From positions 248,001 through 312,000 of the forward strand of contig NZ_SHKW01000001.1 of assembly GCF_004217555.1 (NCBI RefSeq): DNA of 64,000 nt, written 5' to 3'. Source of the stretch: Edaphobacter modestus. GTDB taxonomy: Bacteria > Acidobacteriota > Terriglobia > Terriglobales > Acidobacteriaceae. Under the pieces are notes generated by a model that was not told the origin of the DNA, ran no database searches, and was given only the letters and a program-made list of their open reading frames with translations. Each line of letters opens with the position of its first letter. Within the stretch, counting starts at the first letter, position 1. This document shows, in pieces, positions 2 through 13,885 of the stretch. The position numbers and the translations under genes were made by a program.

Positions 2-550
2 ATAAGTGGCGATGCGTGGAAGCGATATTCCAATCAGGGCTCATGGTATTACGAAATTGTCGATGCGGGATTAAAAGCGAACATGCCTGACTTGCTCGCA
101 GCATTAGGATTGGCGCAGCTAAAAAAGGCGGAGGCGTTCCACCTGCGTCGCCGAGAAATTGCTGACCTCTATTTGCGAAGACTATCCCGTATAGAGGAGT
201 TGGAAATGCCGCCTACGGGAGACGTGAATGTCACGCATTCCTGGCATCTCTTCATATTGCGGCTTCGACCCGAAATGCTTGCAACGGGCCGCAATGATTT
301 GATCCATCAATTAAAACAAGCAGGCGTCGGCACAAGTGTTCATTTTATACCTCTGCACCTGCATCCATATTACCGGGAGCGGTATGGATATCGTTCTGGC
401 GACTTCCCAAATGCGGAGGACGCGTTCACACGCTGTGTCTCTCTACCAATATATCCAGATATGAACGAGGCGGATGTGGAGAGGGTGACAGCCTCGGTCG
501 AACAATTTGTTCAGAAGAACTGCCGACGTATGTCTATCTGTGCTTCTTAG
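2..550 (+). CDS. DegT/DnrJ/EryC1-family sugar aminotransferase, C-terminal part
   Basis: The reading frame is open from the window edge and ends at TAG 548-550, so the 5' part lies outside. The visible part is the small C-terminal domain of PLP-dependent sugar aminotransferases: KANMPDLLAALGLAQLKK, then a helix of arginines, SWHLFILRL, a V.TSVHFIPLHLHPYY-like stretch and SLPIYPDM. These enzymes transfer an amino group to a keto-sugar nucleotide in the cytoplasm and typically supply amino sugars for EPS or O-antigen. The PLP lysine is upstream of the window. The neighbouring sugar transferase and glycosyltransferases fit that role. The substrate cannot be told. Confidence 0.9.
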   Translation: MSGDAWKRYSNQGSWYYEIVDAGLKANMPDLLAALGLAQLKKAEAFHLRRREIADLYLRRLSRIEELEMPPTGDVNVTHSWHLFILRLRPEMLATGRNDLIHQLKQAGVGTSVHFIPLHLHPYYRERYGYRSGDFPNAEDAFTRCVSLPIYPDMNEADVERVTASVEQFVQKNCRRMSICAS

Positions 551-563
551 GGTCGGAGGTTGT

Positions 564-1277
564 GTGCTCGCTAACATTTACACGCCGTTAGAGTCGATTG
601 TTGGGTCAAACTGGTACACATCCCGTAGAAGACGATGGATAGATATCGTTGCCGCTGCTCTTGGTTTGGTTCTGCTGTTACCGGCGATCTTCGTGATATC
701 CCTAGCTATCCTAATCAGCTCAGGTAAACCAATTCTTTTCGTGCAAAAACGGGTAGGCCGCTACGGCCAGGAGTTTGCTTTGCTGAAGTTCCGCACCATG
801 AAAATCACCATGTACAGTGGACCCGGGTTAACTCGCGATGGCGATTCCCGTGTAACCGGTATAGGACGCTGGCTACGAAAAAGAAAACTTGATGAGTTAC
901 CGCAACTGATCAATGTGCTGAAAGGGGAAATGACCTTGGTTGGCCCGAGACCTGATCTAGAGCAATTCTGGTCGCAAGCCAGGACAGAAGATCGGCGGGT
1001 TCTTGAATTGACTCCTGGTTTGACAGGAGCCGCAAGTCTTGCATTCAGTGACGAAGAACAACTACTGGCGCAGGTTCCGGCAGAATGCCTAGCATCGTTC
1101 TATCTTCAGCAAGTCCTTCCACAGAAGGCGAGGCTTGACAGTGAGTACGCTGCGCGGGCGACGTTCCGAAGCGACTGTGGCATTCTGCTTCAGACAGTGT
1201 TCCTACCAATGTTTCAGCGGTACCGTACTCAGAGAAATATCAGCGAAACGGAAATCAATGTACAGATTTCCAGATAA
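564..1277 (+). CDS. Bacterial sugar transferase (undecaprenyl-phosphate sugar-1-phosphate transferase)
   Basis: About 237 residues. It should load the first sugar phosphate onto the lipid carrier at the inner membrane and so begin the EPS repeat unit. An N-terminal membrane segment (IVAAALGLVLLLPAIFVIS) is followed by the family core: FVQKRVGRYGQEFALLKFRTM, GRWLRKRKLDELPQLINVLKG and MTLVGPRPDLEQF, then LTPGLTGAASLAF. The open frame reaches back to ATG 507, which would overlap the aminotransferase by 44 bases. GTG 564, right after GGAGGT at 555-560, is the better-supported start, with rather short spacing. The stop at 1275-1277 overlaps the start region of the deacetylase-like pseudogene. A copy of its last ~90 bases recurs at ~3932-4018. 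Confidence 0.88.
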   Translation: MLANIYTPLESIVGSNWYTSRRRRWIDIVAAALGLVLLLPAIFVISLAILISSGKPILFVQKRVGRYGQEFALLKFRTMKITMYSGPGLTRDGDSRVTGIGRWLRKRKLDELPQLINVLKGEMTLVGPRPDLEQFWSQARTEDRRVLELTPGLTGAASLAFSDEEQLLAQVPAECLASFYLQQVLPQKARLDSEYAARATFRSDCGILLQTVFLPMFQRYRTQRNISETEINVQISR

Positions 1278-2183
1278 TAAACAATTTGCATTTTACGATT
1301 CTCGATGATACCGATTTGAGTACCGTCGAAAATGTCAGGCCTATATATCGCCTGCTTGGAGAGCTAGGCATGAGGACAACGAAATCGGTCTGGCCACTAG
1401 CAAGTGTTCCCGATGGACGTCAGGGTGGCTCTAGTCTTCAGGAAGATAATTATCTTAAATTCGTTCTCGACCTGAAAGAGCTAGGCTTTGAAATCTCGTT
1501 GCACAATGTGCGCAATCATGACTCAACGCCCGAAATAACCAAACAGGGATTGGAGGAATTTCGACAGTCGCTCGGTCGCTGCCCCCGTGTTCATGCCAAT
1601 CATTTCTATAAATCGCGACAACATATACTGGGGATCTGCACGTTTCAGCAGGCTGCGACTTCTATATTCAGCTGGTACGGCGTTGCATGACAGACACATT
1701 TTTGAGGGGCACGATTCTGGCACTCCGTTTTCTGGTGTGATCTATGCCGCGGCACAGTAGATTATGTTCGCAATGTTGTCTTTAGAGAAATCAACCTGGA
1801 TCGGATAAATCCCACGATGCCATATCACGATCAAGCGCGGCCCTTCGTTAATTATTGGTTTAGCAGTTGCAGGGAGGGAATGCGGCAAGCTTCTGTGAAA
1901 CGCTTTCTGAATCGAACCAGGATCGCCTCGAAGCGGAAGGAGGTGTATGTATCATGTACGCGCACTTTGCTTGTGGCTTCGTCAAGGATGGCATCGTCCA
2001 TGCGAGGACCGAGGAGCTGTTGCGCAGACTTGCAGCTCGGAATGGTTGGTTCGTGCCGGTCTCGACCCTACTTGCTTTCTTCGCGTCGAACGATCTGCCA
2101 CGAGTATTCCTGTGCCGGAGCTCGCTTCGATGGAACAATGCAGCCGATTTGTGAAGCATTGGTTTAACCGCGAAGGAATGTGA
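1258..2183 (+). pseudogene. Polysaccharide-deacetylase-like protein, at least five frameshifts
   Basis: Joining frames gives one continuous protein: MYRFPDNKQFAF from ATG 1258, then TILDDTDLSTVENV, KSVWPLASVPDGR, FEISLHNVRNHDSTPEI, RVHANHFYN, TVDYVRNVVFREINLDR, FVNYWFSSC, NAASFCETLSESNQDRL, MYAHFACGFVKDGIVH and PVPELASME. Frame breaks are visible near 1291-1294 (T run), 1610-1612 (A run), ~1746, ~1871 (lost G) and ~2082 (short T run). The layout resembles deacetylase-like proteins of EPS loci; that family assignment is from memory of the motifs and moderate. With this many lesions no full product can be made. A second, almost wholly deleted copy sits at 4018-4110. Confidence 0.75.
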
Positions 2184-2239
2184 CCAGTGTGTGCGAATCG
2201 ATATGTTACGCCAATCTTGATCGTCTAGAGGGGCAAGTA

Positions 2240-3496
2240 ATGTTTGTCACAAGCCTACGACGCTGGATTGAAAACTTTGGGAAACACGCAAGGTCCAGGG
2301 TTATTGACGGTAAGACGTATCGCATCGTACACCTGACCTCTGCTCACCCTGCGCTGGACGGGCGCATTTTTCATAAAGAATGCCGATCGCTCGCACGCGC
2401 GGGTTACGAGGTTATGCAAGTGGGGAACTACGATCTCAACGGCATCGTTGACGGAGTCAGGCTGCGGGGATTGGGCTCGAGTAAGGATCGATTTCAGAGA
2501 TTCACCAGTAGACTGTTTTCTATTTGCCGAGAGGCGTTTCGGGTCGACGGTGATCTGTACCACGTCCATGATCCAGACTTGCTCCTCGTAGGTCTAGTGC
2601 TCCGCGCTGCGGGCAGACGGGTTGTCTATGACATTCACGAAGATCTCCCAACGAAGATACTTCTAAAAATGTATCTGCCGAAGCTGATCCGCAAACCCTT
2701 GCGATGGATCGTGAAGCGCATGGAGGACGCGGCTGCGGGTTTTATGAGTGGGTTGATCACAGCTACTCCGGCGCTCAAGGATCGCTTCATCATCGTGCAC
2801 CGTAATATTGTTACTGTGAACAATTATCCCATTCTTGAAGACTTTTCCCGACCAGCGAATGTGGACTGGAACAGCCGCCATCAAACGGTCACATACTTCG
2901 GCGGAATCTCTGAAGCACGCGGTATAAGGGAGATGTTGACAGCAATGGACCTGTTGCCGCGAACGCTTGACGTAAAACTCGAGTTGGCGGGATGGTTCTA
3001 TGTGAAAGCACTATTGACTGACCTCGCCACGACACCGCAATGGCAACATGTGAATTGGCACGGTGAGCTAGACCGCAATGGCCTTACCCTTTTACTCAGC
3101 AGGGTGTTAGCTGGATTGGTGATACTTCATCCTGAAAAGACCTTTATTACTTCACAGCCCACCAAACTCTTCGAGTACATGGCCGCTGGGATTCCAGTGA
3201 TCGTTTCTGATTTTCCGCTCTGGCGAAGCATTATTCAGGAGGCTAGTTGCGGACTAATCGTAAACCCGTTTGATACCCAAGCAATTGCCGCAGCCATTGA
3301 GTATCTGGTGTCGAATCCCCGCGAAGCGGAAACAATGGGGCAACGCGGGCGCAGAGCCGTCGAAAAGCGCTTCAATTGGGCAAATGAGGAGCAAACGTTA
3401 TTGTCGTTTTATTCGTCCCTGCTACCCAATCGTAGGGTGTTAGATGCAGTAGTTCTAGTGGCGTGGGTGTTGGATGCAGTAGTTCTAGTGGCGTGA
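2240..3496 (+). CDS. Glycosyltransferase, group 1 / GT4 type (copy 1)
   Basis: About 418 residues from ATG 2240, which follows GAGGGGCAAG; an in-frame start at 2180 lacks conservation with the paralogue. GT-B fold signs: YRIVHLTSAHPALDGRIFH at the N-terminus, YHVHDPDLLLVGLVLRAAG, VVYDIHEDLP, and in the C-terminal half SQPTKLFEYMAAGIPVIVSD (nucleotide-sugar binding E of the EX7E type) and MGQRGRRAVEKRFNW. It should add a sugar to the lipid-linked EPS unit in the cytoplasm. It is the tandem paralogue of the gene at 4173-5348, clearly similar over its whole length. The last 20 residues come from a 30-bp tandem repeat and are absent from the paralogue. Confidence 0.9.
   Translation: MFVTSLRRWIENFGKHARSRVIDGKTYRIVHLTSAHPALDGRIFHKECRSLARAGYEVMQVGNYDLNGIVDGVRLRGLGSSKDRFQRFTSRLFSICREAFRVDGDLYHVHDPDLLLVGLVLRAAGRRVVYDIHEDLPTKILLKMYLPKLIRKPLRWIVKRMEDAAAGFMSGLITATPALKDRFIIVHRNIVTVNNYPILEDFSRPANVDWNSRHQTVTYFGGISEARGIREMLTAMDLLPRTLDVKLELAGWFYVKALLTDLATTPQWQHVNWHGELDRNGLTLLLSRVLAGLVILHPEKTFITSQPTKLFEYMAAGIPVIVSDFPLWRSIIQEASCGLIVNPFDTQAIAAAIEYLVSNPREAETMGQRGRRAVEKRFNWANEEQTLLSFYSSLLPNRRVLDAVVLVAWVLDAVVLVA
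3435..3494 (+). repeat. 30-bp tandem repeat at the 3' end of the glycosyltransferase gene
   Basis: Two head-to-tail copies, 3435-3464 and 3465-3494, differ at one base (tta versus ttg). They encode VLDAVVLVAW followed by VLDAVVLVA and the stop. The unit length is a multiple of three, so the frame is kept. The tail is hydrophobic. Confidence 0.9.
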
Positions 3497-3555
3497 ATTA
3501 GTTGATGAAAACATTCACGTCTATCACTCTAGATCAAACACACTGTGGAATGGCG

Positions 3556-3931
3556 ATGAACATCCGATTTGTGAGCCACGCAAGCTTTAGTGTTGAGAGT
3601 AACGGCACCACACTTTTGTGTGCGATCCATGGGTGTTTGGCAAAGCATTCAACAAAGGGTAGGCCCTGGTAAGCCCTGCAGCAACTGTGCCTTGGGAAAC
3701 AATCGATTACGTCTGGATTTCTCACCAGCACCCCGATCATCTCCACTTTCCCACCCTCAAGAGCCTCACCACTCAACAACGAGAGCATTCCTAGAGTATT
3801 GCAAGGATTGGGATATCCCATCGTCCAAGAGCTCAAGTTGAACAAATGGACACCACTGCGCGGCGGGGTAGAAGTGATGTGTGGCTCGGCAGGGTCGACG
3901 GATTCTTGGATAGCTATTCGTGCAGAGGGAA
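3556..3931 (+). pseudogene. Remnant of a CMAH-like metallo-beta-lactamase-fold gene (copy 1, truncated)
   Basis: Clear DNA similarity to 5422-5830 of the second copy. ATG 3556 begins MNIRFVSHASFSVES, matching MKLRFVSHASFSVEN. Further on, shifted frames give DPWVFGKAF, the HQHPDHLHFPTL metal motif and LNKWTPLRGGVEVMCGS. Several indels destroy the frame, and the similarity stops at ~3930, where the sequence changes abruptly to a copy of the sugar-transferase 3' end. It is therefore a relic, cut at the junction of an old tandem duplication. Confidence 0.85.
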
Positions 3932-4110
3932 ACGACTGTGGCATTCTGCTGCAGACCGCGTTCTACCTATCCTTCAGCGGTACCGTACCCGGATAAAAGG
4001 CAGCAAAACGGAAATCAATGAACAGATTTCCAAATAGCAAGCAATTTGCATTTCTTCGCATCGAACGATGTGCCACGAATATTCCCGCGCCGGAACTCGT
4101 TACGATGGCC
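3932..4110 (+). pseudogene. Relic: sugar-transferase 3' end plus deleted deacetylase-like gene (copy 2)
   Basis: 3932-4018 copies the end of the sugar transferase (compare 1170-1260: CGACTGTGGCATTCTGCT, AGCGGTACCGTAC, ACGGAAATCAATG). ATG 4018 then begins MNRFPNSKQFAF, equivalent to MYRFPDNKQFAF at 1258. The frame jumps directly to the very end of the deacetylase-like gene (TTCTTCGCATCGAACGATG, then CCGGAACTCG). About 0.75 kb between two TTGC-containing sites is missing. Not expressed as a functional protein. Confidence 0.85.
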
Positions 4111-4172
4111 TGCAGCTGACCGCGTTTTTCGCACCCAGGAGATCTGGGACTATCAACGCCCAGAATTAATCA

Positions 4173-5348
4173 ATGTCCACAGTCATTAGTCCCGGCACGT
4201 ATCGCATTGTACACCTGACATCCGCACATCCGCCGTTGGATGTCCGCATCTTTCATAAAGAATGCCGTTCACTGGCGCGTGCAGGTTATGAGGTCATTGC
4301 ATTGGGAAACCACGTCTGCGATGAGACTGTTGACGGGGTAAAAATTCAAGGATTGGGCTTGGCTAACGGTAGGATCCAAAGAATGACGATCAAACTGGCT
4401 AAGATGTACAAAGCAGCATTTGAGGCGACAGCGGACGTTTATCACATTCACGATCCGGAGCTCCTCATCGTGGGGCTTGTTCTCCGGGCAGCCGGAAAAA
4501 GAGTGGTTTATGATATACACGAGGACTTACCTAGAACAATACTTTTAAAGGCTTATATTCCTAGATTTCTCCAAAAGCCTTTAATGTGGATCGTAGAACG
4601 GGTGGAGGATGCTGCCGCACGTCAGATGAGCGGGCTGGTCACGGCTACCCCAGCTCTGGCGAATCGATTTAGATCCATACATCGCAATACCGTTGTCGTA
4701 AATAACTTCGTTATGCTCGAGGAGTTTGTCCCGTCAACGAGGTTGGAATGGAAGCGTCGCGACCCGGCCGTTGCCTACTATGGCGGAATATCGTACGAGC
4801 GAGGCATTCGGGAGATGTTGACGGCCATGGAGCTGCTTCCGGGTACACTGCATCTAAAGCTCGAGTTGGGCGGCTGGTTTTATGTGCAAGAACAGGAAGC
4901 TGAACTGACGGCTGAACCGTGCTGGAGACATGTCAATTGGCACGGCGAACTCGATCGCAACGGTATTGCTTCTTTGCTGAATAGGGTGCAGGTTGGGTTG
5001 GTGGTCGTGCACCCTGACGAAGCCTACTTGACCTCACAGCCAACCAAGCTCTTCGAGTATATGGCTGCGGGAATTCCTGTGGTTGCTTCTGATTTTCCGC
5101 TGTGGCGCAGTATCATCCGTAAGGCTGGTTGCGGATTCCTTGTAGATCCCTTCAACGTTCGCGATATCGCTGCTGCAATTGAGCATTTGATAAGAAATCC
5201 TGACGAAGCTGAAGCAATGGGGCAGCGAGGTCGCAAAGCGGCTGAAGAACGCTTTAGCTGGGCACATGAAGAGCAAGTACTGCTGTCATTCTATTCAGCG
5301 CTGCTGAATGAGTATAAGGTCTTGAAGACGGAAGCGATGGCGGCGTAA
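4173..5348 (+). CDS. Glycosyltransferase, group 1 / GT4 type (copy 2)
   Basis: 391 residues, intact. It shows the same features as copy 1: TYRIVHLTSAHPPLDVRIF, YHIHDPELLIVGLVLRAAG, VVYDIHEDLPRTILLKAY, VNWHGELDRNG, SQPTKLFEYMAAGIPVVASD and MGQRGRKAAEERFSW. A cytoplasmic GT-B enzyme of EPS assembly; donor and acceptor unknown. The ATG at 4173 matches the conserved N-terminus (YRIVHLTSAHP begins about eight residues later), which argues for this start and against the longer frame of copy 1. No strong ribosome-binding site is seen upstream. It is followed at once by the second CMAH-like gene, as copy 1 is followed by its relic, so GT plus CMAH-like protein was the duplicated unit. Confidence 0.92.
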   Translation: MSTVISPGTYRIVHLTSAHPPLDVRIFHKECRSLARAGYEVIALGNHVCDETVDGVKIQGLGLANGRIQRMTIKLAKMYKAAFEATADVYHIHDPELLIVGLVLRAAGKRVVYDIHEDLPRTILLKAYIPRFLQKPLMWIVERVEDAAARQMSGLVTATPALANRFRSIHRNTVVVNNFVMLEEFVPSTRLEWKRRDPAVAYYGGISYERGIREMLTAMELLPGTLHLKLELGGWFYVQEQEAELTAEPCWRHVNWHGELDRNGIASLLNRVQVGLVVVHPDEAYLTSQPTKLFEYMAAGIPVVASDFPLWRSIIRKAGCGFLVDPFNVRDIAAAIEHLIRNPDEAEAMGQRGRKAAEERFSWAHEEQVLLSFYSALLNEYKVLKTEAMAA

Positions 5349-5421
5349 ACGAATTAGGCAAGGAGTGATACGGCTAAAGGTTGTTCTTGACCCCGGTATT
5401 CAGAGGTCCCTCGAACTACTT

Positions 5422-6774
5422 ATGAAGTTACGATTTGTGAGCCATGCGAGCTTCAGTGTCGAAAATGGTGAAGTCACACTCTTATCTGATCCGTGGTTGT
5501 TCGGAAAGGCATTTAACCGAGGTTGGGCTCTGCTAAGTCCTGCTGCTACGGTGCCTTGGGAAAAGATCGATTACGTCTGGATATCCCATCAGCACCCCGA
5601 TCACCTTCATTTTCCGACGCTCAAGGGCCTTCCTCCTCAGGAAAAGAATCGCCTGACCGTGCTCTACCAGAAGCATGCGTCGCTGCGCATACCCAAGGTA
5701 TTGCGAGGATTGGGGTACACCAACGTCTAGGAACTCACCTTGAACAAGTGGATATCGCTGCGCGGCGGGGTAGAAGTGATGTGCGGCTCTACCGGGTCGA
5801 TGGACTCCTGGATAGCGGTTCGCGCTGAGGGGCTGAGTGTATTGAACCTCAACGATTGCATGATCGAGCCGGCCCATCTGGCGTACATCTCGAAACTCGT
5901 CGGAAAAGTAACAGTGCTGCTGACCCAGTTCTCTTTTGCGAACTGGATCGGAAACTGCGCCGATGAACTGGGAGAGGTTGAGATCAAACTGCGAGAAGTG
6001 CAGCAACGAGTGAATTTGCTGAAGCCGGAGGCGACGATTCCGTTCGCCAGTCTCATATACTTCTGTAGCCAGGAGAACAGTTGGATGAATGAGTTTGCCG
6101 TTACTCCACGGCGCGTTGCAGATCTGGGGCTGCCGGGTGTGAATTTCATGTACCCAGGTGACGAATGGGACTCAGATGTGCGAACGTTCAGCTCAACCGA
6201 GGCCATCGAAAAATACATGAACGATGTGGCTCGGCCAAAGGTGATCGATCCGACTCCGTCCACGATCCCGATAGACATCGTTCAACGGGCAGTAGATAGG
6301 ACTTTACGAGCGGTGCGCGCGCGGTTTGGCAAATTCACCATCGGACGAATCAAACCGTTTTCAATATACCTGCATGATCTAGACAAGGTTTTGAGGGTGC
6401 ATCCGGCGGGTACATGCGAGGTTCAGGATGCCACGGAAGAGAGGCGCGATGTTGCACGGTACGTGATGTGCAGCCAAGTGGCGTGGTATGCGTTCGCATA
6501 CAGTTGGGGCTGGGCAGCGATGGAGTCTTCCGGCATGTACTTTGACCGCCGCTTCAAAGAGCCGAACCCTCTAGTGTTCTACCTCAACATCCTCTCGACG
6601 GAGTTCTTGAACTTCAGTAGTGTGCGCCAGGCATGGCGAACCATTGAGTTTCTCTGGGCGAAGCGTCGTGAGCTGTGTTATCGCATGTGGGCGCGGTTCA
6701 TCCGGCGCAAAGAGTCAGATTTTGCGGGTGCCTGCGGGCGAGGGTCATCGATAGCAGCAGACCGTGCCGCTTAG
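5422..6774 (+). pseudogene. CMAH-like metallo-beta-lactamase-fold protein (no Rieske domain), interrupted by one amber codon
   Basis: A single frame of 451 codons from ATG 5422 carries one internal stop, TAG 5728-5730 (codon 103). The relic at 3556-3931 has CAA at the same place (VQELKLNKW), so the stop looks like a single C-to-T change in a CAG codon. Before it: DPWLFGKAFNRGWALL and WISHQHPDHLHFPTL with metal-binding H56, H58, D60 and H61. After it: LRGGVEVMCGS, LNLNDCMI and a helical C-terminal region. DPWL.G.AF.RGW plus HxHxDHL resembles the CMP-Neu5Ac hydroxylase family as I remember it. It could be a pseudogene, a suppressed stop, or two polypeptides with restart near TTG 5740. Sequencing error cannot be excluded. 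Confidence 0.75.
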
Positions 6775-7006
6775 GGCCTGCTACCCTCCATAGGCGGTAG
6801 CGTTAAATCCACCCCGTTGCGGCGAAAATCGGGTTAATACTACTTCGTTGTCGTCTTTGCACCTGGACTTGCGATGCACTGCGGATTGTCATTCGCAACA
6901 TTTGCTTCCTACGGTGGTAGCAGTCCTTAGCTTAACGACAGCTGATAGCCAACCATTTCACCCTAAGTGGAATTCAGAGACATCGAAAAACGGCAGGAAC
7001 TTGACC

Positions 7007-8650
7007 ATGAATATTACATACTTGGGACACGCTGGCTTCATTGCAGAAACCAATGACGTTGTTGTTATCATGGATCCGTGGCTGTCGCCAACTGGCGCGT
7101 TCGATGCGTCCTGGTTTCAGTTGCCCCGCAATCATCATCTGGCGTCTCTTGTTTACGAAAAGCTACAGGATCCCCGGCGGCCCATCTTCCTTTACATCAG
7201 CCACGAGCATCAGGACCATCTGGATATTGAATTTCTGAACAGCCTGCCGGCTCGGAGGTTCACGCTCCTGCTTCCTGCGTTCAGCCGTTCAGTGTTGATG
7301 TCTCGTTTCTCCGACTACGCATGCGAGGAGTTGATCTTCTTCCACCACAAACAGATGATCCAGATTCCTGGGGGATTCTTGAAGTTCTACGTGGACGACT
7401 CGCAGTTGAACCGTGACTCGGCGATCTTGATCAAAGCCGGCGGAAACGCATTCCTCAATCTGAACGATTGCAAGCTGTTTGACACGCTGGCTGAGATTGT
7501 TCAAGAAGAGGGTCCTATCAAAGTCTTCGCATGCCAGTTTTCCGGCGCGACGTGGCATCCGACTTGTTACGACTACCCGGTTGACAAGTACGAGACGTAC
7601 TCGAAGAAGAAATATTTGGCGAAGTTCGAATCAGTCGCCAAGGCGATCGAAGTGATTCGCCCGGATGTGTATATCCCATCTGCGGGACCGCCATGCTTTC
7701 TGGATCCGATGTTGTTTCATCTCAATCACCAACACGTAAACATTTTTCCGAGGGCGAATAAGATCATTCAATATTTAGATCAGCGGCTACGGAACACTTC
7801 AGTCTTTGCTCCGGAAATGATGCCGGGCGATGTGCTCAATGCCTCATCCTGCCGAGTTATTTCATTCGCGGAAAGGCGCTTCGATGAGATGACGGCTGAG
7901 GCATACCTAGCCGAATATGCGGCCTCGTACAGCAAGTATTTTGAGGAACGTCTGTCGTTACATGGCCGTGCGAACGAAGAGCAAAACCTCGAGGCGCTCA
8001 GGGGGGAACTCGAAATCAAGCTTAGGCGGTTGAGCCTGGCGGACCGGGTTACTTCGCCACTGTACTTTCGGCTCGGTGAGGAGGCCAAGCCGATGTTGCG
8101 AGTCGACTTCGGACGCAGAGTCGTAGAGTATGTTTCAGGGAACAACGACTCTAAATACTATGAGATTTCTGCTCCGGCATGGCAGATAGCAAAGGTCCTG
8201 AATCATGAGTTGACATGGGAAGAGTTTGCACTCACGTTTCGGCTCCGCTTGAAACGAGACCCCGATGTCTACGATCCTATCTTGCATGCGTTCCTAGTGA
8301 TGGAGGCTGAGGATCTTGGGGGGTACTGCGATCTGCTACTTCAACTTGAAGCTCAGGAAGAGCGCTTCATCGTAGAAGCTGAAGGCAGAAAGTTTTCAGT
8401 CAGGCGTTACTGTCCGCACCAGGGAGGCGATCTTTCGTGCGGATGGATTGATCAGGGCCGGTTCCTCACATGCCCCCGGCATAGATGGCAGTTTGATTTG
8501 CTGAGCGGAGGCCAGTGCACCACAAATGCAATGAGCGTCCAGGCAGTGTGCCTTGAAGTGGCTGCCGAGGAATCGTCAACTTCCTGCCCGAGCGAAATCG
8601 AGGCGGATCTGAGACACGAAGTGTCCGTGCAGTCGCCGGACCGGACCTAA
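7007..8650 (+). CDS. CMAH-like metallo-beta-lactamase-fold protein with C-terminal Rieske [2Fe-2S] domain
   Basis: 547 residues from ATG 7007, where the conserved MNITYLGHAGFIAET begins; the open frame extends to 6848 without family support. Domain order: metallo-beta-lactamase fold ~1-270 (DPWLSPTGAF, YISHEHQDHLD with H66, H68, D70, H71, FLNLNDCKLF), a middle region ~300-440 with LTWEEFALTFRLRLKRDPD, then a Rieske domain ~445-525 (C469PH471QGGDLSCG and C489PRH492W). The middle motif and the CxHQGG / CxxHxW pattern resemble CMP-N-acetylneuraminate hydroxylase, but there the Rieske domain is N-terminal. A role as an oxygenase acting on an activated sugar of this EPS pathway is inference. It needs an electron donor, none of which is visible here. 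Confidence 0.85.
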   Translation: MNITYLGHAGFIAETNDVVVIMDPWLSPTGAFDASWFQLPRNHHLASLVYEKLQDPRRPIFLYISHEHQDHLDIEFLNSLPARRFTLLLPAFSRSVLMSRFSDYACEELIFFHHKQMIQIPGGFLKFYVDDSQLNRDSAILIKAGGNAFLNLNDCKLFDTLAEIVQEEGPIKVFACQFSGATWHPTCYDYPVDKYETYSKKKYLAKFESVAKAIEVIRPDVYIPSAGPPCFLDPMLFHLNHQHVNIFPRANKIIQYLDQRLRNTSVFAPEMMPGDVLNASSCRVISFAERRFDEMTAEAYLAEYAASYSKYFEERLSLHGRANEEQNLEALRGELEIKLRRLSLADRVTSPLYFRLGEEAKPMLRVDFGRRVVEYVSGNNDSKYYEISAPAWQIAKVLNHELTWEEFALTFRLRLKRDPDVYDPILHAFLVMEAEDLGGYCDLLLQLEAQEERFIVEAEGRKFSVRRYCPHQGGDLSCGWIDQGRFLTCPRHRWQFDLLSGGQCTTNAMSVQAVCLEVAAEESSTSCPSEIEADLRHEVSVQSPDRT

Positions 8651-8806
8651 TTTGGTGGCGAAGCCCATTCCTAAAGGTTGTTGCAAGGAGCGTTGCAGTA
8701 GTCGAGCGTCTTATCGCCCGGCGCACTGACTGGTTCTCGGAGCCGCACGCAATCAACTGAAAGTACGGGAAAAGTATAGCTCGCCGCATCGGAGCGGCCG
8801 AACACT

Positions 8807-10636
8807 ATGTGCGGAATATTCGGCGCCGTAAACATTGAGGGCTTTTTCGATCGCGCTGCATTCGAGCGTTTTTCGAAACTCAACGACGTGACATCTTATC
8901 GGGGACCTGATGATCACGGCGTCTGCCGGCTGAAGCTTAAGCAGTCGGGAGGTCAGGTAGGTGACTGTTTCGACGTGTTTCTCGGGAATCGTCGTCTGTC
9001 GATACTCGATCTCACCTCGAACGGTCACCAGCCGATGACGGATCAGCAAGGTCTCTGGATCGCGTACAACGGTGAAATCTTCAATTACCTGGAACTGCGG
9101 CGGGAGTTGCAGGCCAAAGGGCATAAATTCACTACTGACACGGATACTGAAGTCATTTTGCATGTTTACAGTGAATATGGAGAGCAGGGGTTCAATCGTC
9201 TTAACGGTATGTGGGCGTTTGCCATCGTTGACGTGCCGAATCGACGCGTAGTGCTGAGCAGAGATCGTTTTTCCATCAAGCCATTGTATCTTTTACCCCT
9301 TCCCGGCTGCACCTACTTCGCGAGCGAAATCAAGCAGCTTCTTCCTCTCCTACCGACGCGCCGGCTGAATGCCGAGACCATGTCGGCATTCATCACGCAA
9401 GGATTGCTCGATCATTCGCGCGCGACTTTTTTCGAGGGGATCGTCAAGGCAGCGCCGCGGACGAACATCGTTATTGCGCTCGACACGGGGGATATTAGCG
9501 AAAGCGCGTATTGGAACTTTGACCGTACCAATCACATTAGTTCACTGCAGGAAGCCGAGGAACAGTTTCGCGAGTTATTTCTCGATAGCATCAAGCTACG
9601 CCTCCGCAGTGACGTACAGGTGGGGGTACTCTTGAGCGGTGGACTCGATTCGTCTGCGATTGCGGTCGGCTGCAGAATGACTAGTGGTGACCGAGTCGAC
9701 AGCTATTCGATCGTATCTGAGGACGGCCTTTGCGACGAGCGCCGCTATATCAACGTCTTGGTCGAGACGGGACTGAAGAACCGTCAAACTGTTTTCCGAT
9801 GCGACGATGTTCTTCAGGATCTAGATAAGGTGCTCGATCACAGCGATGAGCCCGTCGGCGGCTTCAGCGTAGTGGCACAATACAAATTATTCCGTGCTAT
9901 CAAGCAGGAAACGGATGTCACCGTACTTCTGAGTGGCCAGGGAGGGGATGAAGTCCTCCTCGGCTATTTGAAATTCTTTTTCTTTCACTTGAAATTGTTG
10001 TATCTCCAGCGCAGGTATTCGCAGGCAATATTCCAATTAGGTGCGAGCCTGTATCAGCGCACAGTAGTGCATCAATTCACATTGCGTTCAGCTCGGCGTT
10101 ATATACCGACGCTCGGTACGAGGCTGGACCGTGCATTCAAATCGGGACACGCGTCAGTGCCCATTTGGGCGTGTGGCGACATTGCATCTCGCCAGATCGC
10201 AGACATCGAGAAGTACTCTGTTCCAGCCCTGACACATTACGAGGATCGGAACTCGATGGCACATTCGCTGGAGGTGAGACACCCCTTTCTCGATCACAGA
10301 CTGGTCGAACTCCTCCTAAATATTCCACCTGAATGGAAGATCAGGAATGGGTGGACAAAATACCTATTGCGCCATGCGTTTCCCGAGTTGCCCGACGCCA
10401 TTAGATGGCGGCGTGACAAACAGGGGTTTTTAACTCCGGAACAAAATTGGCTAAAGAATGATCTAAAACATTTGATTCGAAGCACGTTTCACAATAGTGA
10501 GCTTTCCCGATTAGGCATATTGAATGACCAGGAATTTCTCAAGTATTACGATCGATTCCAGCGCGGCGCTGCTATCCCGGAGAGTGACATAGCGCGCACG
10601 TTCATTGCAGAACGATGGATGCGACGTGCCTTTTGA
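8807..10636 (+). CDS. asnB: Asparagine-synthase-type glutamine amidotransferase
   Basis: 609 residues, usual AsnB length. The N-terminal class-II glutaminase domain begins MCGIFGAVN with the nucleophile Cys2, followed by SYRGPDDHG, RLSILDLT.NGHQPM, YNGEIFNYLELR and TDTDTEVILH. The C-terminal synthetase domain has the ATP PP-loop VGVLLSGGLDSSAIAVG at about residues 270-287, LLSGQGGDEVLLGY and NSMAHSLEVRHPFLDHRLVE. Glutamine-derived ammonia is passed to an ATP-activated carboxylate. Within an EPS cluster such enzymes often amidate a sugar acid or build an unusual residue rather than make asparagine; this is inference. Ten bases separate it from the flippase gene. Confidence 0.93.
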   Translation: MCGIFGAVNIEGFFDRAAFERFSKLNDVTSYRGPDDHGVCRLKLKQSGGQVGDCFDVFLGNRRLSILDLTSNGHQPMTDQQGLWIAYNGEIFNYLELRRELQAKGHKFTTDTDTEVILHVYSEYGEQGFNRLNGMWAFAIVDVPNRRVVLSRDRFSIKPLYLLPLPGCTYFASEIKQLLPLLPTRRLNAETMSAFITQGLLDHSRATFFEGIVKAAPRTNIVIALDTGDISESAYWNFDRTNHISSLQEAEEQFRELFLDSIKLRLRSDVQVGVLLSGGLDSSAIAVGCRMTSGDRVDSYSIVSEDGLCDERRYINVLVETGLKNRQTVFRCDDVLQDLDKVLDHSDEPVGGFSVVAQYKLFRAIKQETDVTVLLSGQGGDEVLLGYLKFFFFHLKLLYLQRRYSQAIFQLGASLYQRTVVHQFTLRSARRYIPTLGTRLDRAFKSGHASVPIWACGDIASRQIADIEKYSVPALTHYEDRNSMAHSLEVRHPFLDHRLVELLLNIPPEWKIRNGWTKYLLRHAFPELPDAIRWRRDKQGFLTPEQNWLKNDLKHLIRSTFHNSELSRLGILNDQEFLKYYDRFQRGAAIPESDIARTFIAERWMRRAF

Positions 10637-10645
10637 GGTCAAACG

Positions 10646-11974
10646 ATGGTGACTAGTTTGTCGGTGCAAGGTATGACGGAGGTGATCGTCAGGCGGTTCG
10701 TCAACTTGCGCCGCGACTTTCCGTTCGCGACGAATGTGGCCGTGCTTAGTGGCGGAGCCTCGTTGGGGCACTTGTTCACTCTTGCGGCGGAACCAATCCT
10801 AACACGGTTATATCTGCCGAATGACATCGGTAATTTAGGGCTGTTCAATGCATTCTTCGCTGTTGCTGCAGTGGCAGCTTCGCTCCAATATGACGTTGCA
10901 ATCGTCTCTGCCCCACATCAGAAGGAGGCGGCGCAACTCGCAATTCTGGCGATGTTATTAGCCATACCGATGAGTGTAGCGGGCGGCCTTCTACTGTATG
11001 TCCTGATTCACTTCTCGCTTGTTGGCTTCGGTGTTCTACCGGCGTACGCTGCGGTGTTGATGGTTCCAACCATCTTGTTCGCTGGCTTATTCTCGGTTCT
11101 TCGATATTGGGCACTTCGTAACGAAAGGTTTGACCAAGTATCGCAGGCACTCATCTTCCAGAACGGCGGACGCAGCGTATCGCAACTCGCCTTGGGAGTT
11201 ATCGGCTCACATTCTTTCGGTTTGTTAGTGGGGGAAGTCGTTGGGCGGGGTGCCGGGATGAGCCGTATGTTGCGAAGTACCTGGCCCGTGGTGCGCGACT
11301 ATGGTTTCAACTTTCGGGATGTCTCAAAGGCGCTGAGGGGCAATCGGCAATTTCCCTTATACTCAACACCCTCATCGCTGCTAAATGTGCTCGGCACGAG
11401 CCTTCCCCTGCCGCTGTTGATAACGCTTTACGGCGCAGATGCTGGTGGTTATTACTCCCTCGTGTGGAGAGTCCTGGCCGTACCTGTCGTTCTGATCGGC
11501 TCCAGCATGGCTGACGCTTTCCATAGCCGCGCTGCGCTTTTTGCTCGCGAAGATCCAAAACGTCTGCTGTGGTTTTTCCATAGCACCACCCTCGGCTTGC
11601 TTGCTATGGGTATCGTCCCGGCATTGGCGGTCTTCTTCTACGGTGAGTCGATCTTCCTTTTTGTATTCGGAGTAAAATGGAGGCTTTCGGGCATCATTGC
11701 TGCAATCGTAGCTCCCTGGTTTCTGACATCGTTTGTCGTTAGCCCGTTGAGCCGGTTAGTGTTCGTGTTGCATGGTCAACGCTTGAAACTGATCTACGAC
11801 ATCTTCATTCTCGGTGGAAACCTCTTGGTCTTCTGGTTCGCGAGACGCCTTGATTGGCCGATGCTCCATATGGTCACCGCTATGAGCGCGATGAATACAG
11901 GCTCCAAAGTCGTCTATTACTTCGTGCTACGTCGAATCGCATCCACTGCAGTACAAGTACCAATTCAGCTATAA
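10646..11974 (+). CDS. Wzx-type polysaccharide flippase (MOP superfamily)
   Basis: 442 residues with about 12 hydrophobic segments, for example LGLFNAFFAVAAVAASLQYD, LAILAMLLAIPMSVAGGLLL and LLITLYGADAGGYYSLVWRV. The pattern NVAVLSGGASLGHLFTLAAE.ILTRLYLP near the start is typical of EPS/O-antigen exporters. It should move lipid-linked repeat units across the inner membrane for polymerisation by a Wzy protein, a candidate for which is encoded at 15358-16785. ATG 10646 is ten bases after asnB; a second ATG at 10673 is possible. Confidence 0.88.
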   Translation: MVTSLSVQGMTEVIVRRFVNLRRDFPFATNVAVLSGGASLGHLFTLAAEPILTRLYLPNDIGNLGLFNAFFAVAAVAASLQYDVAIVSAPHQKEAAQLAILAMLLAIPMSVAGGLLLYVLIHFSLVGFGVLPAYAAVLMVPTILFAGLFSVLRYWALRNERFDQVSQALIFQNGGRSVSQLALGVIGSHSFGLLVGEVVGRGAGMSRMLRSTWPVVRDYGFNFRDVSKALRGNRQFPLYSTPSSLLNVLGTSLPLPLLITLYGADAGGYYSLVWRVLAVPVVLIGSSMADAFHSRAALFAREDPKRLLWFFHSTTLGLLAMGIVPALAVFFYGESIFLFVFGVKWRLSGIIAAIVAPWFLTSFVVSPLSRLVFVLHGQRLKLIYDIFILGGNLLVFWFARRLDWPMLHMVTAMSAMNTGSKVVYYFVLRRIASTAVQVPIQL

Positions 11975-12817
11975 GTTCCTGTAAAAACACCCTCATCGTG
12001 GCGTTCATCAGGTCTCCCTAAAATCCTTACATACTGCACCAGGACAGTTCAGTGCATCGACGAAGAGCAGCTTTCAACCGGGCGGTCTTCTACGCTCCCG
12101 AACAACCATGGTGTTAGTCTGCTACTTTAACGGTTACGAGGGATTCCACGACAGGGGCGAATTCAGGTCACGCTGCTGCGGGGTGGGATCCAGCGGCCCG
12201 CTTCTGTTAGCCCTCTGTTTTGGTTTGTGGTATTCGCTTTGGCTGGCCTAAATTTATCGTGTCCCTTTGTTACCCATCCCCTCAAGAGCGATGAATCTAA
12301 AGTCACCATGCCATTCTTGAGCATTAAGTGCTGTGCATTGATGGTTTAGGCCTTTGGTTTCCATTTTCATTATGTCTAATTTGTAGACACTTATTCGGTA
12401 CGCGCTCAATTTCAGAACAGATTAGGCCAAGGCCGCTTCAATAGTGGTAGACGCAATCGGATGGCAAGCTTGGGTAATCAATCCGTTAATGACCGCCGTC
12501 GGTTTTAGGCCGCTGCACACGCCTTGGATTCTGGCGCGTGCAGCAGGGCAATTTGCTATCTACTCCATTACCGCTTTCGACGCTCTTCCTCACTAGTCGC
12601 GGCCACAGACATGCGTTCTTGAATATTCAACAGCCCTGTTGTGCTCGCCTCCTTCAGGAGGATGCGGGATATCGGCTAGCTGACAACCGATGGACCTAAC
12701 AATATTAAGTAACCGGCGTAGAAGCAGTCGCGACTTACTCTGCAAACAGAATGAACAATAAAAAGACTGGCGATCAGCATCGGCAGTTGGATTAGTGCAA
12801 GTTCGAGGAGAACTATC
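11975..12817. other. 843-bp intergenic region, no gene recognised
   Basis: No frame on either strand shows a recognisable protein. It holds a GAGGAGA ribosome-binding site just before ATG 12818 and AT-rich patches near 12350-12400 and 12700-12780 where a promoter for the epimerase operon could lie. Short coding-like stretches (a hydrophobic stretch near 12190-12250) may be decayed gene pieces but cannot be assigned. Confidence 0.5.
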
Positions 12818-13885
12818 ATGGCAGAACAAATCAAGCGTGTCGCTGTCATCGGCGGCGCAGGATATCTAGGAAGTACCTTGTGTGTCCATCTGGTCAGCCA
12901 GGGAATCCAGGTTGTATCGATTGATCCGCTCTGGTTTGGTGACGACGGCTTGCGCCCACTTCGGAATCATCCGTACTTTAGCAGCTTGAAGATCGATGTT
13001 CCGCACGGAGATGAGGTGCTGCCGCATCTTCGAGGCTGTGATGCTGTGATATGGGTAGCCGGGCTGGTCGGGGATCCCGCTTGCGACCTCGATATAGGCT
13101 TTACATACAGTTGTAACTATCGAAGTGTTCTTACTCTGGCTCACATCTGCAAGTGGCTTGGAATTCACAGATTTATCTTTGCATCCAGTTGCAGCGTATA
13201 TGGCAAGTCGAGTTCCGACGTAGTCCATCTTAGTGAAGGCTCCGCCACATGCCCACTGTCTTTCTATGCACAGGATAAACTTGCTTGCGAGAAGGCCCTT
13301 CGGGGAATGGCCGATGACTGCTTTCACCCAAGCATTTTGCGACTTGCTACATTATTCGGTTGGTCCAACCGGATGCGTTTCGATCTAGTAGTTAATGTGT
13401 TAACGGCAAGAGCATGCAGGAAAGAGACACTGGAAATATGTGGCGGAAGCCAGCGACGGCCTTTCTTACATGTAAAAGATGCTGCCCGTGCCTTTGTTAC
13501 AGTTCTAACCAGCGAAATTTCACTTATTTCAAGTGAAATTTTCAACGTCGGGGCCGATTCCAATAATCATCGCATCCTCGATATTACCGACCTCGTCCTT
13601 TCCTCTATCCCCGGTGTGCGAGTCAAATTTATCTCCGAATCGGTCGATCTTCGGGACTACGATGTGGATTTCTCAAAAATCACAGAAACTCTTTCTTACA
13701 AGACCGAGTTTACGGTGGCGCAGGGTATCGCCGAGATCCAGCAGAAATTGTCCGAAGCGAATGGAATCGACATTGCGGATCCCGTCTACGTAAATGTGAA
13801 GAGAACCCGCCAACTCATCAGCGAAAGTTGGAAGAATGGGCGCCAGTTGCAATCTACGGCTGAGCTTGTCGGGAGTGCCGCATAA
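12818..13885 (+). CDS. NAD-dependent sugar epimerase/dehydratase (extended SDR)
   Basis: 355 residues. The Rossmann motif VAVIGGAGYLGSTLCVHLV begins near residue 8; D.AVIWVAGLVGDPAC gives the central strand; the catalytic SCSVYGK serine region and Y-x-x-x-K (YAQDK, ~residues 151-155) are present; RPFLHVKDAARAFV and FNVGADSNNHRI follow. It is cytoplasmic and acts on a nucleotide sugar, substrate unknown. GAGGAGA precedes the ATG at good spacing. The beta-helix gene starts 16 bases after its stop, so they are probably co-transcribed. A relic of a second copy (matching ADSNNHRILDITDLVLSS) lies at 16800-16893. Confidence 0.92.
   Translation: MAEQIKRVAVIGGAGYLGSTLCVHLVSQGIQVVSIDPLWFGDDGLRPLRNHPYFSSLKIDVPHGDEVLPHLRGCDAVIWVAGLVGDPACDLDIGFTYSCNYRSVLTLAHICKWLGIHRFIFASSCSVYGKSSSDVVHLSEGSATCPLSFYAQDKLACEKALRGMADDCFHPSILRLATLFGWSNRMRFDLVVNVLTARACRKETLEICGGSQRRPFLHVKDAARAFVTVLTSEISLISSEIFNVGADSNNHRILDITDLVLSSIPGVRVKFISESVDLRDYDVDFSKITETLSYKTEFTVAQGIAEIQQKLSEANGIDIADPVYVNVKRTRQLISESWKNGRQLQSTAELVGSAA

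Follow-up and report, generated by a model that had tools for sequence, protein, structure and literature searches.

An exopolysaccharide locus in Edaphobacter modestus, lying in the 64,000-nucleotide stretch analysed here (the window), carries three related MBL sequences, of which only RB, a fused MBL-Rieske gene, is intact; the others are RL, a Rieske-less homologue, and a relic at 3556. With moderate confidence we interpret RB as a self-sufficient NamH-type exopolysaccharide hydroxylase and RL as a separate relative that is broken in the window genome. From domain order, intact motifs, full-length NamH-type homology, predicted fold and sugar-gene context, which are the basis of this reading, we infer the iron, electron path, hydroxylation and substrate of RB. 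The Rieske cluster would feed electrons into a pair of metal ions, probably iron, bound by the MBL domain, where oxygen would be activated and the methyl of an N-acetylated nucleotide sugar hydroxylated, and the resulting N-glycolyl sugar would then be polymerised into exopolysaccharide.

Layout of the locus

Open reading frames and Pfam matches bore out the gene order given in an earlier note on this DNA, with two GT4 genes, an MBL relic, a Rieske-less MBL sequence and an MBL-Rieske gene followed by AsnB and a Wzx-like gene (Table 1), and its assignment to an exopolysaccharide locus was likewise supported. Besides AsnB, Pfam identified DegT; a WbpA-like dehydrogenase and Gfo/Idh plus acyltransferase were assigned by eye. 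The Wzx-like gene gave no match in the Pfam scan and has homologues in genomes G030 (Edaphobacter sp. RYN_3) and G034. An intact homologue of the deacetylase-like gene, 328 aa long and found in G030, also had no Pfam match, and a PHROGs search returned no matches.

Table 1 Features of the exopolysaccharide locus, in window coordinates.
Feature	Position	Strand	Evidence and remarks
Sugar transferase (Bac_transf)	507..1277	+	Pfam PF02397 9.7e-52; first of the glycan assembly genes; 3' tail repeated at 3929-4053
Broken deacetylase-like gene	1286..2167	+	134-aa frame remaining at 5' end only; named by eye
GT4 glycosyltransferase copy a	2180..3496	+	Pfam Glycos_transf_1 2.4e-18
Relic of Rieske-less MBL gene	3556..3955	+	Frameshifted, 3' end missing; 70% nucleotide identity to RL
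Sugar-transferase tail, second copy	3929..4053	+	Repeat families D4 and D8, 84% and 89%; marks repeated segment
GT4 glycosyltransferase copy b	4173..5348	+	Pfam Glycos_transf_1 1.4e-20
RL, Rieske-less MBL homologue with in-frame TAG (pseudogene in window genome)	5422..6774	+	Lactamase_B_3, no Rieske
In-frame TAG, RL codon 103	5728..5730	+	Between HxHxDH motif and remaining conserved acids
RB-containing segment missing at the same place in G034	6821..8656	+	Flanked by 6-bp repeat GGCGAA (6821-6826, 8657-8662)
RB, intact 547-aa MBL - middle domain - Rieske protein, NamH-type	7007..8650	+	Pfam, alignment, AlphaFold2
HxHxDH metal motif of RB, residues 66-71	7202..7219	+	In 46/46 aligned proteins
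Rieske domain of RB	8354..8524	+	PF00355 9.4e-10; ligands C469, H471, C489, H492
AsnB-type amidotransferase	8807..10636	+	PF00733 4.1e-72
Wzx-like flippase	10646..11974	+	NCBIfam MOP flippase 2.2e-4, weak, far under cut-off
NAD-dependent sugar epimerase/dehydratase	12818..13885	+	PF01370 9e-34

The relic at 3556 aligned with RL over 412 columns (E 2.8e-58), which is not a chance match, and its frame is broken. The homology claimed for it earlier therefore holds, but the doubling is wider, taking in the sugar-transferase tail (1168-1293 resembling 3929-4053) and a deacetylase-like relic piece (2076-2133 resembling 4051-4108). A simple recent tandem duplication does not account for the whole, since GT4 copies a and b share 63% amino acid identity and are saturated at synonymous sites, whereas identity between the sugar-transferase tails is 84-89%; the repeat could equally well have arisen by mixing of different alleles. 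The suggestion that GT4 and the MBL gene travelled as a unit drew partial support from the recurrence of GT4-RL adjacency, which occurs twice in the window, again in G030, in G034, where the 3' remnant of a GT4 gene precedes RL, and in G439, where a GT4-type gene sits beside an RL relative.

RB and the NamH-type proteins

Pfam placed Lactamase_B_3 at residues 2-79 of RB and Rieske at 450-506. HxHxDH, D137, N153 and D154 were kept in all 46 aligned proteins, and all 36 aligned RB and NamH-type proteins have the four Rieske ligands. NamH (Rv3818), the mycobacterial hydroxylase of UDP-N-acetylmuramic acid, combines an N-terminal UlaG with a C-terminal Rieske domain (PMC10050696), and it shares with RB this order in one chain, alignment over the full length, HxHxDH, the D and ND positions, and the Rieske ligands. 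RB was 27-30% identical, over 93-97% of its length, to four plasmid-encoded proteins of Rhodococcus and Nocardia, and two of the plasmids carry a UDP-N-acetylmuramate dehydrogenase within 4.3 kb of the match. Besides this low identity, RB differs from NamH in its exopolysaccharide locus, its clade and the lack of an SCP2_Rv3818 match. That Pfam domain was present in one of the Rhodococcus plasmid relatives and in a Mycobacterium genavense match; in RB, PF25451 gave no match at E up to 1, and a scan across the window genome was negative with the control also silent. Among five other RB-side proteins, L087 matched (4.9e-12) and L063, L073, L084 and L086 did not, and the middle region of RB can still be aligned with NamH-type proteins despite having no PF25451 match.

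Closer relatives of RB (40-53% identity, full length) came from Chloroflexi, Bacteroidetes, myxobacteria, Paenibacillus and Legionella. In the tree, the RB clade (support 95 with L087, 100 without) was separate from the NamH clade (100), and the two were joined at 92. RB thus belongs to a sister clade outside that of NamH, so its substrate may differ. Among the papers listed in searches of mostly open-access literature, none dealt with an exopolysaccharide locus that encodes a NamH-type protein.

The label CMAH-like, used in the earlier note, is loose. CMAH (CMP-N-acetylneuraminic acid hydroxylase) and RB share Rieske plus beta-lactamase-like modules and an expected N-acetyl to N-glycolyl chemistry, but the Rieske domain is N-terminal in CMAH (PMC8227644) and C-terminal in RB, as in NamH, and on this opposite order we rejected CMAH membership. 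A sialic acid pathway was sought through NeuB: the one NeuB-family match in the genome was read by eye as a DAHP synthase from its sequence and TyrA-like neighbour, which makes sialic acid an unlikely substrate for RB.

A glycan gene stood at most three genes from the RB relative in 13 of the 21 loci checked. The other eight had none among the genes scanned; five of these are myxobacterial loci with poor gene prediction, in each of which the scan covered no more than two neighbours. Legionella relatives adjoin a pel operon (in Legionella santicrucis) and UDP-GlcNAc 2-epimerase. NamH, which stands for the nearest role-tested enzymes of this domain order, has an N-acetyl group as its target, and both points favour the proposed target over a different one. 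RB may instead be an oxygenase that acts on a different acyl group, on a ring carbon, or on a substituent supplied through the aminotransferase, acyltransferase or AsnB genes, a reading that we consider unlikely even though the locus makes unusual sugars, as DegT, AsnB and the genes assigned by eye indicate, and in L086 the gene immediately preceding the RB relative is of AsnB type. The same MBL diiron scaffold hydroxylates other carbons in the beta-hydroxylases CmlA and FrsH, which act on carrier-bound amino acids (PMC7794379).

CmlA and FrsH were the closest solved structures to the RB profile, which matched FrsH (8a90, 5.1e-12) and CmlA (1.1e-6) over about 220 residues. They share with RB the MBL oxygenase core, with similarity beyond HxHxDH, but the matched part begins near their residue 255, which leaves them with additional sequence at the N-terminus; neither is known to have a Rieske domain. 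In CmlA the third metal motif supplies a glutamate ligand, E377. An aspartate near this position (D137/D128) was invariant in 46 of 46 proteins but did not coincide with E377 in the profile alignment. The AlphaFold2 model of RB (pLDDT 91.1, pTM 0.89) had FrsH as its top Foldseek match, and in VIA-align UlaG-type hydrolases (Z 20.8) ranked slightly above FrsH (Z 19.4). UlaG-type hydrolases and NAPE-PLD share the fold of the first 250-290 residues and equalled or slightly exceeded CmlA and FrsH in structure comparison, so that, on the predicted model, fold comparison does not separate hydrolase from oxygenase. RB and RL could accordingly be MBL hydrolases of lactonase, deacylase or phosphodiesterase type, with the Rieske domain of RB serving only as a redox switch. 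MBL hydrolases, however, usually have further histidine ligands beyond HxHxDH, and the only other MBL-part histidine common to the groups was H8 (42/46), the next most frequent occurring in 23 of 46 proteins, nearly all from the RB clade. The later metal-binding histidine positions of these hydrolases are thus missing from RB, RL and the NamH-type proteins, which, with the invariance of the Rieske ligands, makes a hydrolase decidedly unlikely.

RL and the history of the RB-RL pair

The earlier note had treated 5422-6774 as a gene and omitted its stop; the frame is not open, being broken by the TAG at codon 103. RL keeps the metal motif and is, as judged from its reading frame, a Rieske-less relative of RB inactivated in the window genome by a stop codon. 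Full-length intact copies occur in two same-genus genomes, the intact RL relatives being L025 and L024. RL might nonetheless still function, through readthrough of the TAG, through a restart at TTG 5740 that yields a second chain, or because the stop is only an error of sequencing, and RL and RB would then both work, on two sites. The sequence is otherwise intact and 87% identical to the open G034 gene, AGGA lies seven bases upstream of the TTG, both genes are open in G030, and the dN/dS of 0.29 shows long past selection. That value nevertheless exceeds the 0.12 of AsnB in the same genome pair, the TAG parts HxHxDH from the other conserved acids, and decay is common at the locus, where the deacetylase-like gene and the first MBL copy are broken too; we therefore regard a functional RL as unlikely.

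The earlier note had also proposed that RL and RB could together make up a split-plus-fused oxygenase, in which one protein provides the metal site and its partner the Rieske domain, and had made the idea depend on their co-occurrence elsewhere. Some co-occurrence was found: among 62 Edaphobacter genomes, RL was present in three and RB in two, both of which also have RL (hypergeometric P = 0.0016, ignoring shared ancestry and one shared locus), and in G030 both are open in one operon with Wzx in between. But RL adjoined RB in only 1 of 80 RB loci from other genomes, that of G030; 50 of the 80 have more than 5 kb on both sides. RB by itself has the metal motif as well as the Rieske ligands, G034 keeps an intact RL but lacks RB, and RL-type proteins occur without a full-length RB in four further Acidobacteriota genomes. 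With RL itself broken, a two-protein oxygenase in the window genome is unlikely, and we judge the split-plus-fused arrangement highly improbable.

The count of adjacent loci excludes a second MBL protein in the Myxococcus loci L068 and L069, 7-8 kb from RB on the opposite strand, which was not counted as RL: it has no Rieske pattern, groups with no RL protein in a quick tree, and contains GEHSD and AMGQEPW stretches that by eye are of CmlA type.

Comparison with the RB-less G034 suggests that RB was cleanly inserted between RL and AsnB. In our reading, RB and RL lie side by side through gain, duplication and loss of genes at the locus, not by forming one enzyme.

By sequence, CmlA was the best solved-structure relative of RL. 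Plasmid matches to RL comprised 14 records, six of them haloarchaeal (Halobaculum, Halolamina) and including the best ones; the two haloarchaeal matches inspected were Rieske-less MBL proteins encoded in glycan loci. Where relatives have kept RL, it probably does a related job alone, with electrons from elsewhere.

Wider distribution and significance

A broader reading, which we offer as a tentative possibility, places RB in a NamH sister family that adds N-glycolyl groups to surface polysaccharides in many phyla, alongside a Rieske-less RL clade (Acidobacteriota, with similar haloarchaeal glycan-locus proteins) that has the catalytic core and a separate electron donor. The locus illustrates how such enzymes are gained and lost gene by gene, and the Rieske-less clade would offer a test of how MBL oxygenases that lack a Rieske fusion are supplied with electrons. 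Should the proposed role of RB hold, a mark of the mycobacterial wall and of animal sialic acid would also occur on the exopolysaccharides that soil and aquatic bacteria make, with possible effects on recognition, on charge masking and on breakdown by polysaccharide-cleaving enzymes. Were the many-phyla reading true, bacterial exopolysaccharides would commonly carry N-glycolyl groups, and this modification would have largely escaped notice.

The exopolysaccharide locus and its metallo-beta-lactamase genes

The genome that holds the window (contig C1) measures 7.4 Mb and shares its genus with Edaphobacter sp. RYN_3 (G030). Gene content and domain searches delimited an exopolysaccharide locus encoding a sugar transferase, two GT4 proteins, metallo-beta-lactamase (MBL) proteins, AsnB, a Wzx-like protein and an epimerase. 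On the 5′ side, genes resembling those for Wzc, DegT and Gfo/Idh-acyltransferase and a WbpA-like dehydrogenase gene were identified by eye and with G030 as reference. The locus holds one intact predicted NamH-type hydroxylase, the Rieske-bearing MBL protein RB, together with one dead Rieske-less paralogue (RL) and one relic.

Coordinates of features in the window and in related loci
Feature	Sequence	Coordinates	Strand
Exopolysaccharide locus	window	507-13885	
Deacetylase-like gene	window	1286-2167	
GT4 copy a	window	2180-3496	
30-bp pair	window	3435-3494	
Relic	window	3556-3955	
GT4 copy b	window	4173-5348	
RL	window	5422-6774	+
TAG in RL	window	5728-5730	
RB	window	7007-8650	+
GGCGAA repeat	window	6821-6826, 8657-8662	
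RL block	window; G034 L025	5421-6821; 11888-13289	
Downstream block	window; G034 L025	8659-11950; 13288-16608	
Deacetylase-like homologue	G030 L023	14944-15927	
Pel-type genes and RB relative	L073	294-11608	
AsnB and Rieske-less MBL	G406 L060	8008-11442	
Second MBL protein	L069	19369-18524	−
Second MBL protein	L068	16615-15770	−

RL comprises 450 codons, with an in-frame TAG at codon 103, between HxHxDH and the remaining conserved acids. Intact versions occur in G034, a second relative in the genus (450 aa, 87% identical), and in G030 (455 aa, 63% in the alignment). Between the window and G034, dN/dS was 0.29 for RL (0.17 5′ and 0.36 3′ of the stop) versus 0.12 for AsnB, indicating past selection on RL that has perhaps relaxed recently. 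The frameshifted relic matched RL at 70% over 412 columns.

The repeat search showed a doubled series that runs, in the same order each time, from the sugar-transferase tail through part of the deacetylase-like gene to GT4 and an MBL gene. Since the GT4 copies share 63% protein identity and synonymous sites are saturated, the copies may descend from different alleles. GT4 also adjoins RL in G030, precedes RL as a 3′ remnant in G034, and adjoins an RL relative in G439, from another family of Acidobacteriota, which supports GT4 and the Rieske-less MBL gene as recurrent neighbours and, in part, the proposal in the earlier note that GT4 and a CMAH-like protein travelled as a unit. The deacetylase-like gene is a wreck in the window and an open 328-aa gene in G030, which had no Pfam hit at a cut-off of E 0.1. 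At its 3′ end, GT4 copy a contains a head-to-tail pair of 30-bp units (97% identical to each other) that extends the C-terminus.

Separate histories of RB and RL

In nucleotide alignment with G034, the RL block was 90.5% identical and the downstream block 81.5%. The higher identity of the RL block relative to its flanks (79.5-81.5%) suggests recent local recombination between lineages. The two blocks are contiguous in G034 and separated in the window by 1,836 bases holding RB, with a 6-bp direct repeat at the edges; being short, this repeat is possibly due to chance, yet is compatible with illegitimate recombination. Full-length RB was not found in G034, and in G030 it lies 3′ of Wzx. This arrangement fits an arrival or departure of RB separate from RL, with gain in the window's lineage and loss in G034 both compatible.

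Among 62 Edaphobacter genomes, RB occurred in two (the window's genome, G000, and G030) and RL in three (these and G034; hypergeometric 0.0016, ignoring shared ancestry). Estimated contamination exceeded 5% in G000, G030 and G034 (6.38, 6 and 8, respectively), so the strict tally, which excludes them, was 0/47. Across 396 sampled Acidobacteriota genomes, full-length RB was present in G000 only, and RL-type matches in G000, G439, G382, G406 and G265. RL stood beside RB in one of 80 RB loci (the best 80 of 429), L062 of G030; 50 of the 80 include >5 kb on each of the two sides. The genomic pairing behind the split-plus-fused oxygenase proposed earlier is real in one operon, where both genes are intact, but not general. 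Myxococcus L068 and L069 encode a second MBL protein at a distance of 7-8 kb from the RB relative; by eye it is of CmlA type, and its frame extends upstream past the matched part.

Predicted structures were good for RB (pLDDT 91.1, pTM 0.89) and fair for G030 RL (71.7, 0.76). Foldseek ranked FrsH first for RB (9.5e-11), while NAPE-PLD and other MBL hydrolases led for RL, with CmlA eighth. VIA-align gave Z 20.8 for RB against 3bv6 (rmsd 3.2, 243 aligned) and 19.4 against FrsH (4.3, 238), and for RL 21.7 against 3rpc (2.6, 222) and 20.6 against CmlA 5kik (3.1, 221). Hydrolases exceeded oxygenases by 1.1 to 1.4 Z, a gap too small for fold to decide chemistry, and one that weighs slightly against an oxygenase reading of RB and RL.

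The RB family across phyla

NamH was reportedly discovered through similarity to CMAH. RB relatives were sought in one genome per species; of 429 places confirmed, the best 80 were extracted, none of them from the window's own genome. Among these, G030 ranked first (68%), followed by L063-L083 at 40-53% (56% for L081, cut by a contig end) from Chloroflexi, Bacteroidetes, Chlorobiota, Paenibacillus, myxobacteria, Legionella and others, L084-L087 at 29-32%, and L088-L141 at 26-31%, nearly all actinobacterial. The Rieske pattern was found in 79 of the 80, the exception being the truncated L081. Full-length plasmid relatives were actinobacterial MBL-Rieske proteins, two near UDP-N-acetylmuramate dehydrogenase; SCP2_Rv3818 (Pfam) occurred in one plasmid relative and one Mycobacterium genavense match.

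After excluding six of the 80 extended frames, which held a stop, from alignments and tree, we aligned 46 proteins: RB, 22 of the 26 from L062-L087, 11 of the 54 from L088-L141, two plasmid, three RL and seven RL-like proteins. HxHxDH, D137 and N153-D154 (RB numbering) were present in all 46; for comparison, CmlA has a glutamate ligand (E377), and MBL hydrolases usually carry further His ligands. Rieske ligands were kept in all 36 RB and NamH-type proteins, and the pattern was missing from all ten RL and RL-like proteins. In the midpoint-rooted tree, the RB clade had bootstrap 95 with L087 and 100 without, the NamH clade (n = 12) had 100 and their union 92, with L088 outside; RL joined G439 (98) and then G382 (96), haloarchaeal proteins falling outside. 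RB shares the domain order given for NamH (PMC10050696), the reverse of that for CMAH (PMC8227644); PMC7785958, PMC7794379, PMC3658417, PMC9561416 and PMC6120980 were also consulted.

Neighbourhoods, usually 1-3 neighbours each, were surveyed in 21 of the 26 loci L062-L087. A glycan gene lay ≤3 genes from the RB relative in 13 (L062, L063, L064, L066, L073, L076, L077, L079, L082, L084, L085, L086, L087), and none was recognised in eight (L065, L067, L069, L070, L072, L075, L080, L083). In Legionella santicrucis L073, PelB, PelD, a DUF3492 glycosyltransferase, PelG and an epimerase precede the RB relative, a position at the end of a pel-type operon hinting at a modified Pel polysaccharide.

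Rieske-less MBL proteins were also seen elsewhere. In glycan loci of haloarchaeal Halobaculum plasmids (L040, L041), RL-like proteins of about 450 aa are encoded next to genes for Gfo/Idh, a glycosyltransferase and an epimerase, and L040 has a flippase as well; in G406, from another Acidobacteriota family, a Rieske-less MBL gene comes immediately after AsnB, near formyltransferase and deacetylase genes.

The window is modest by itself; the part deserving pursuit is the sister family of RB across phyla.
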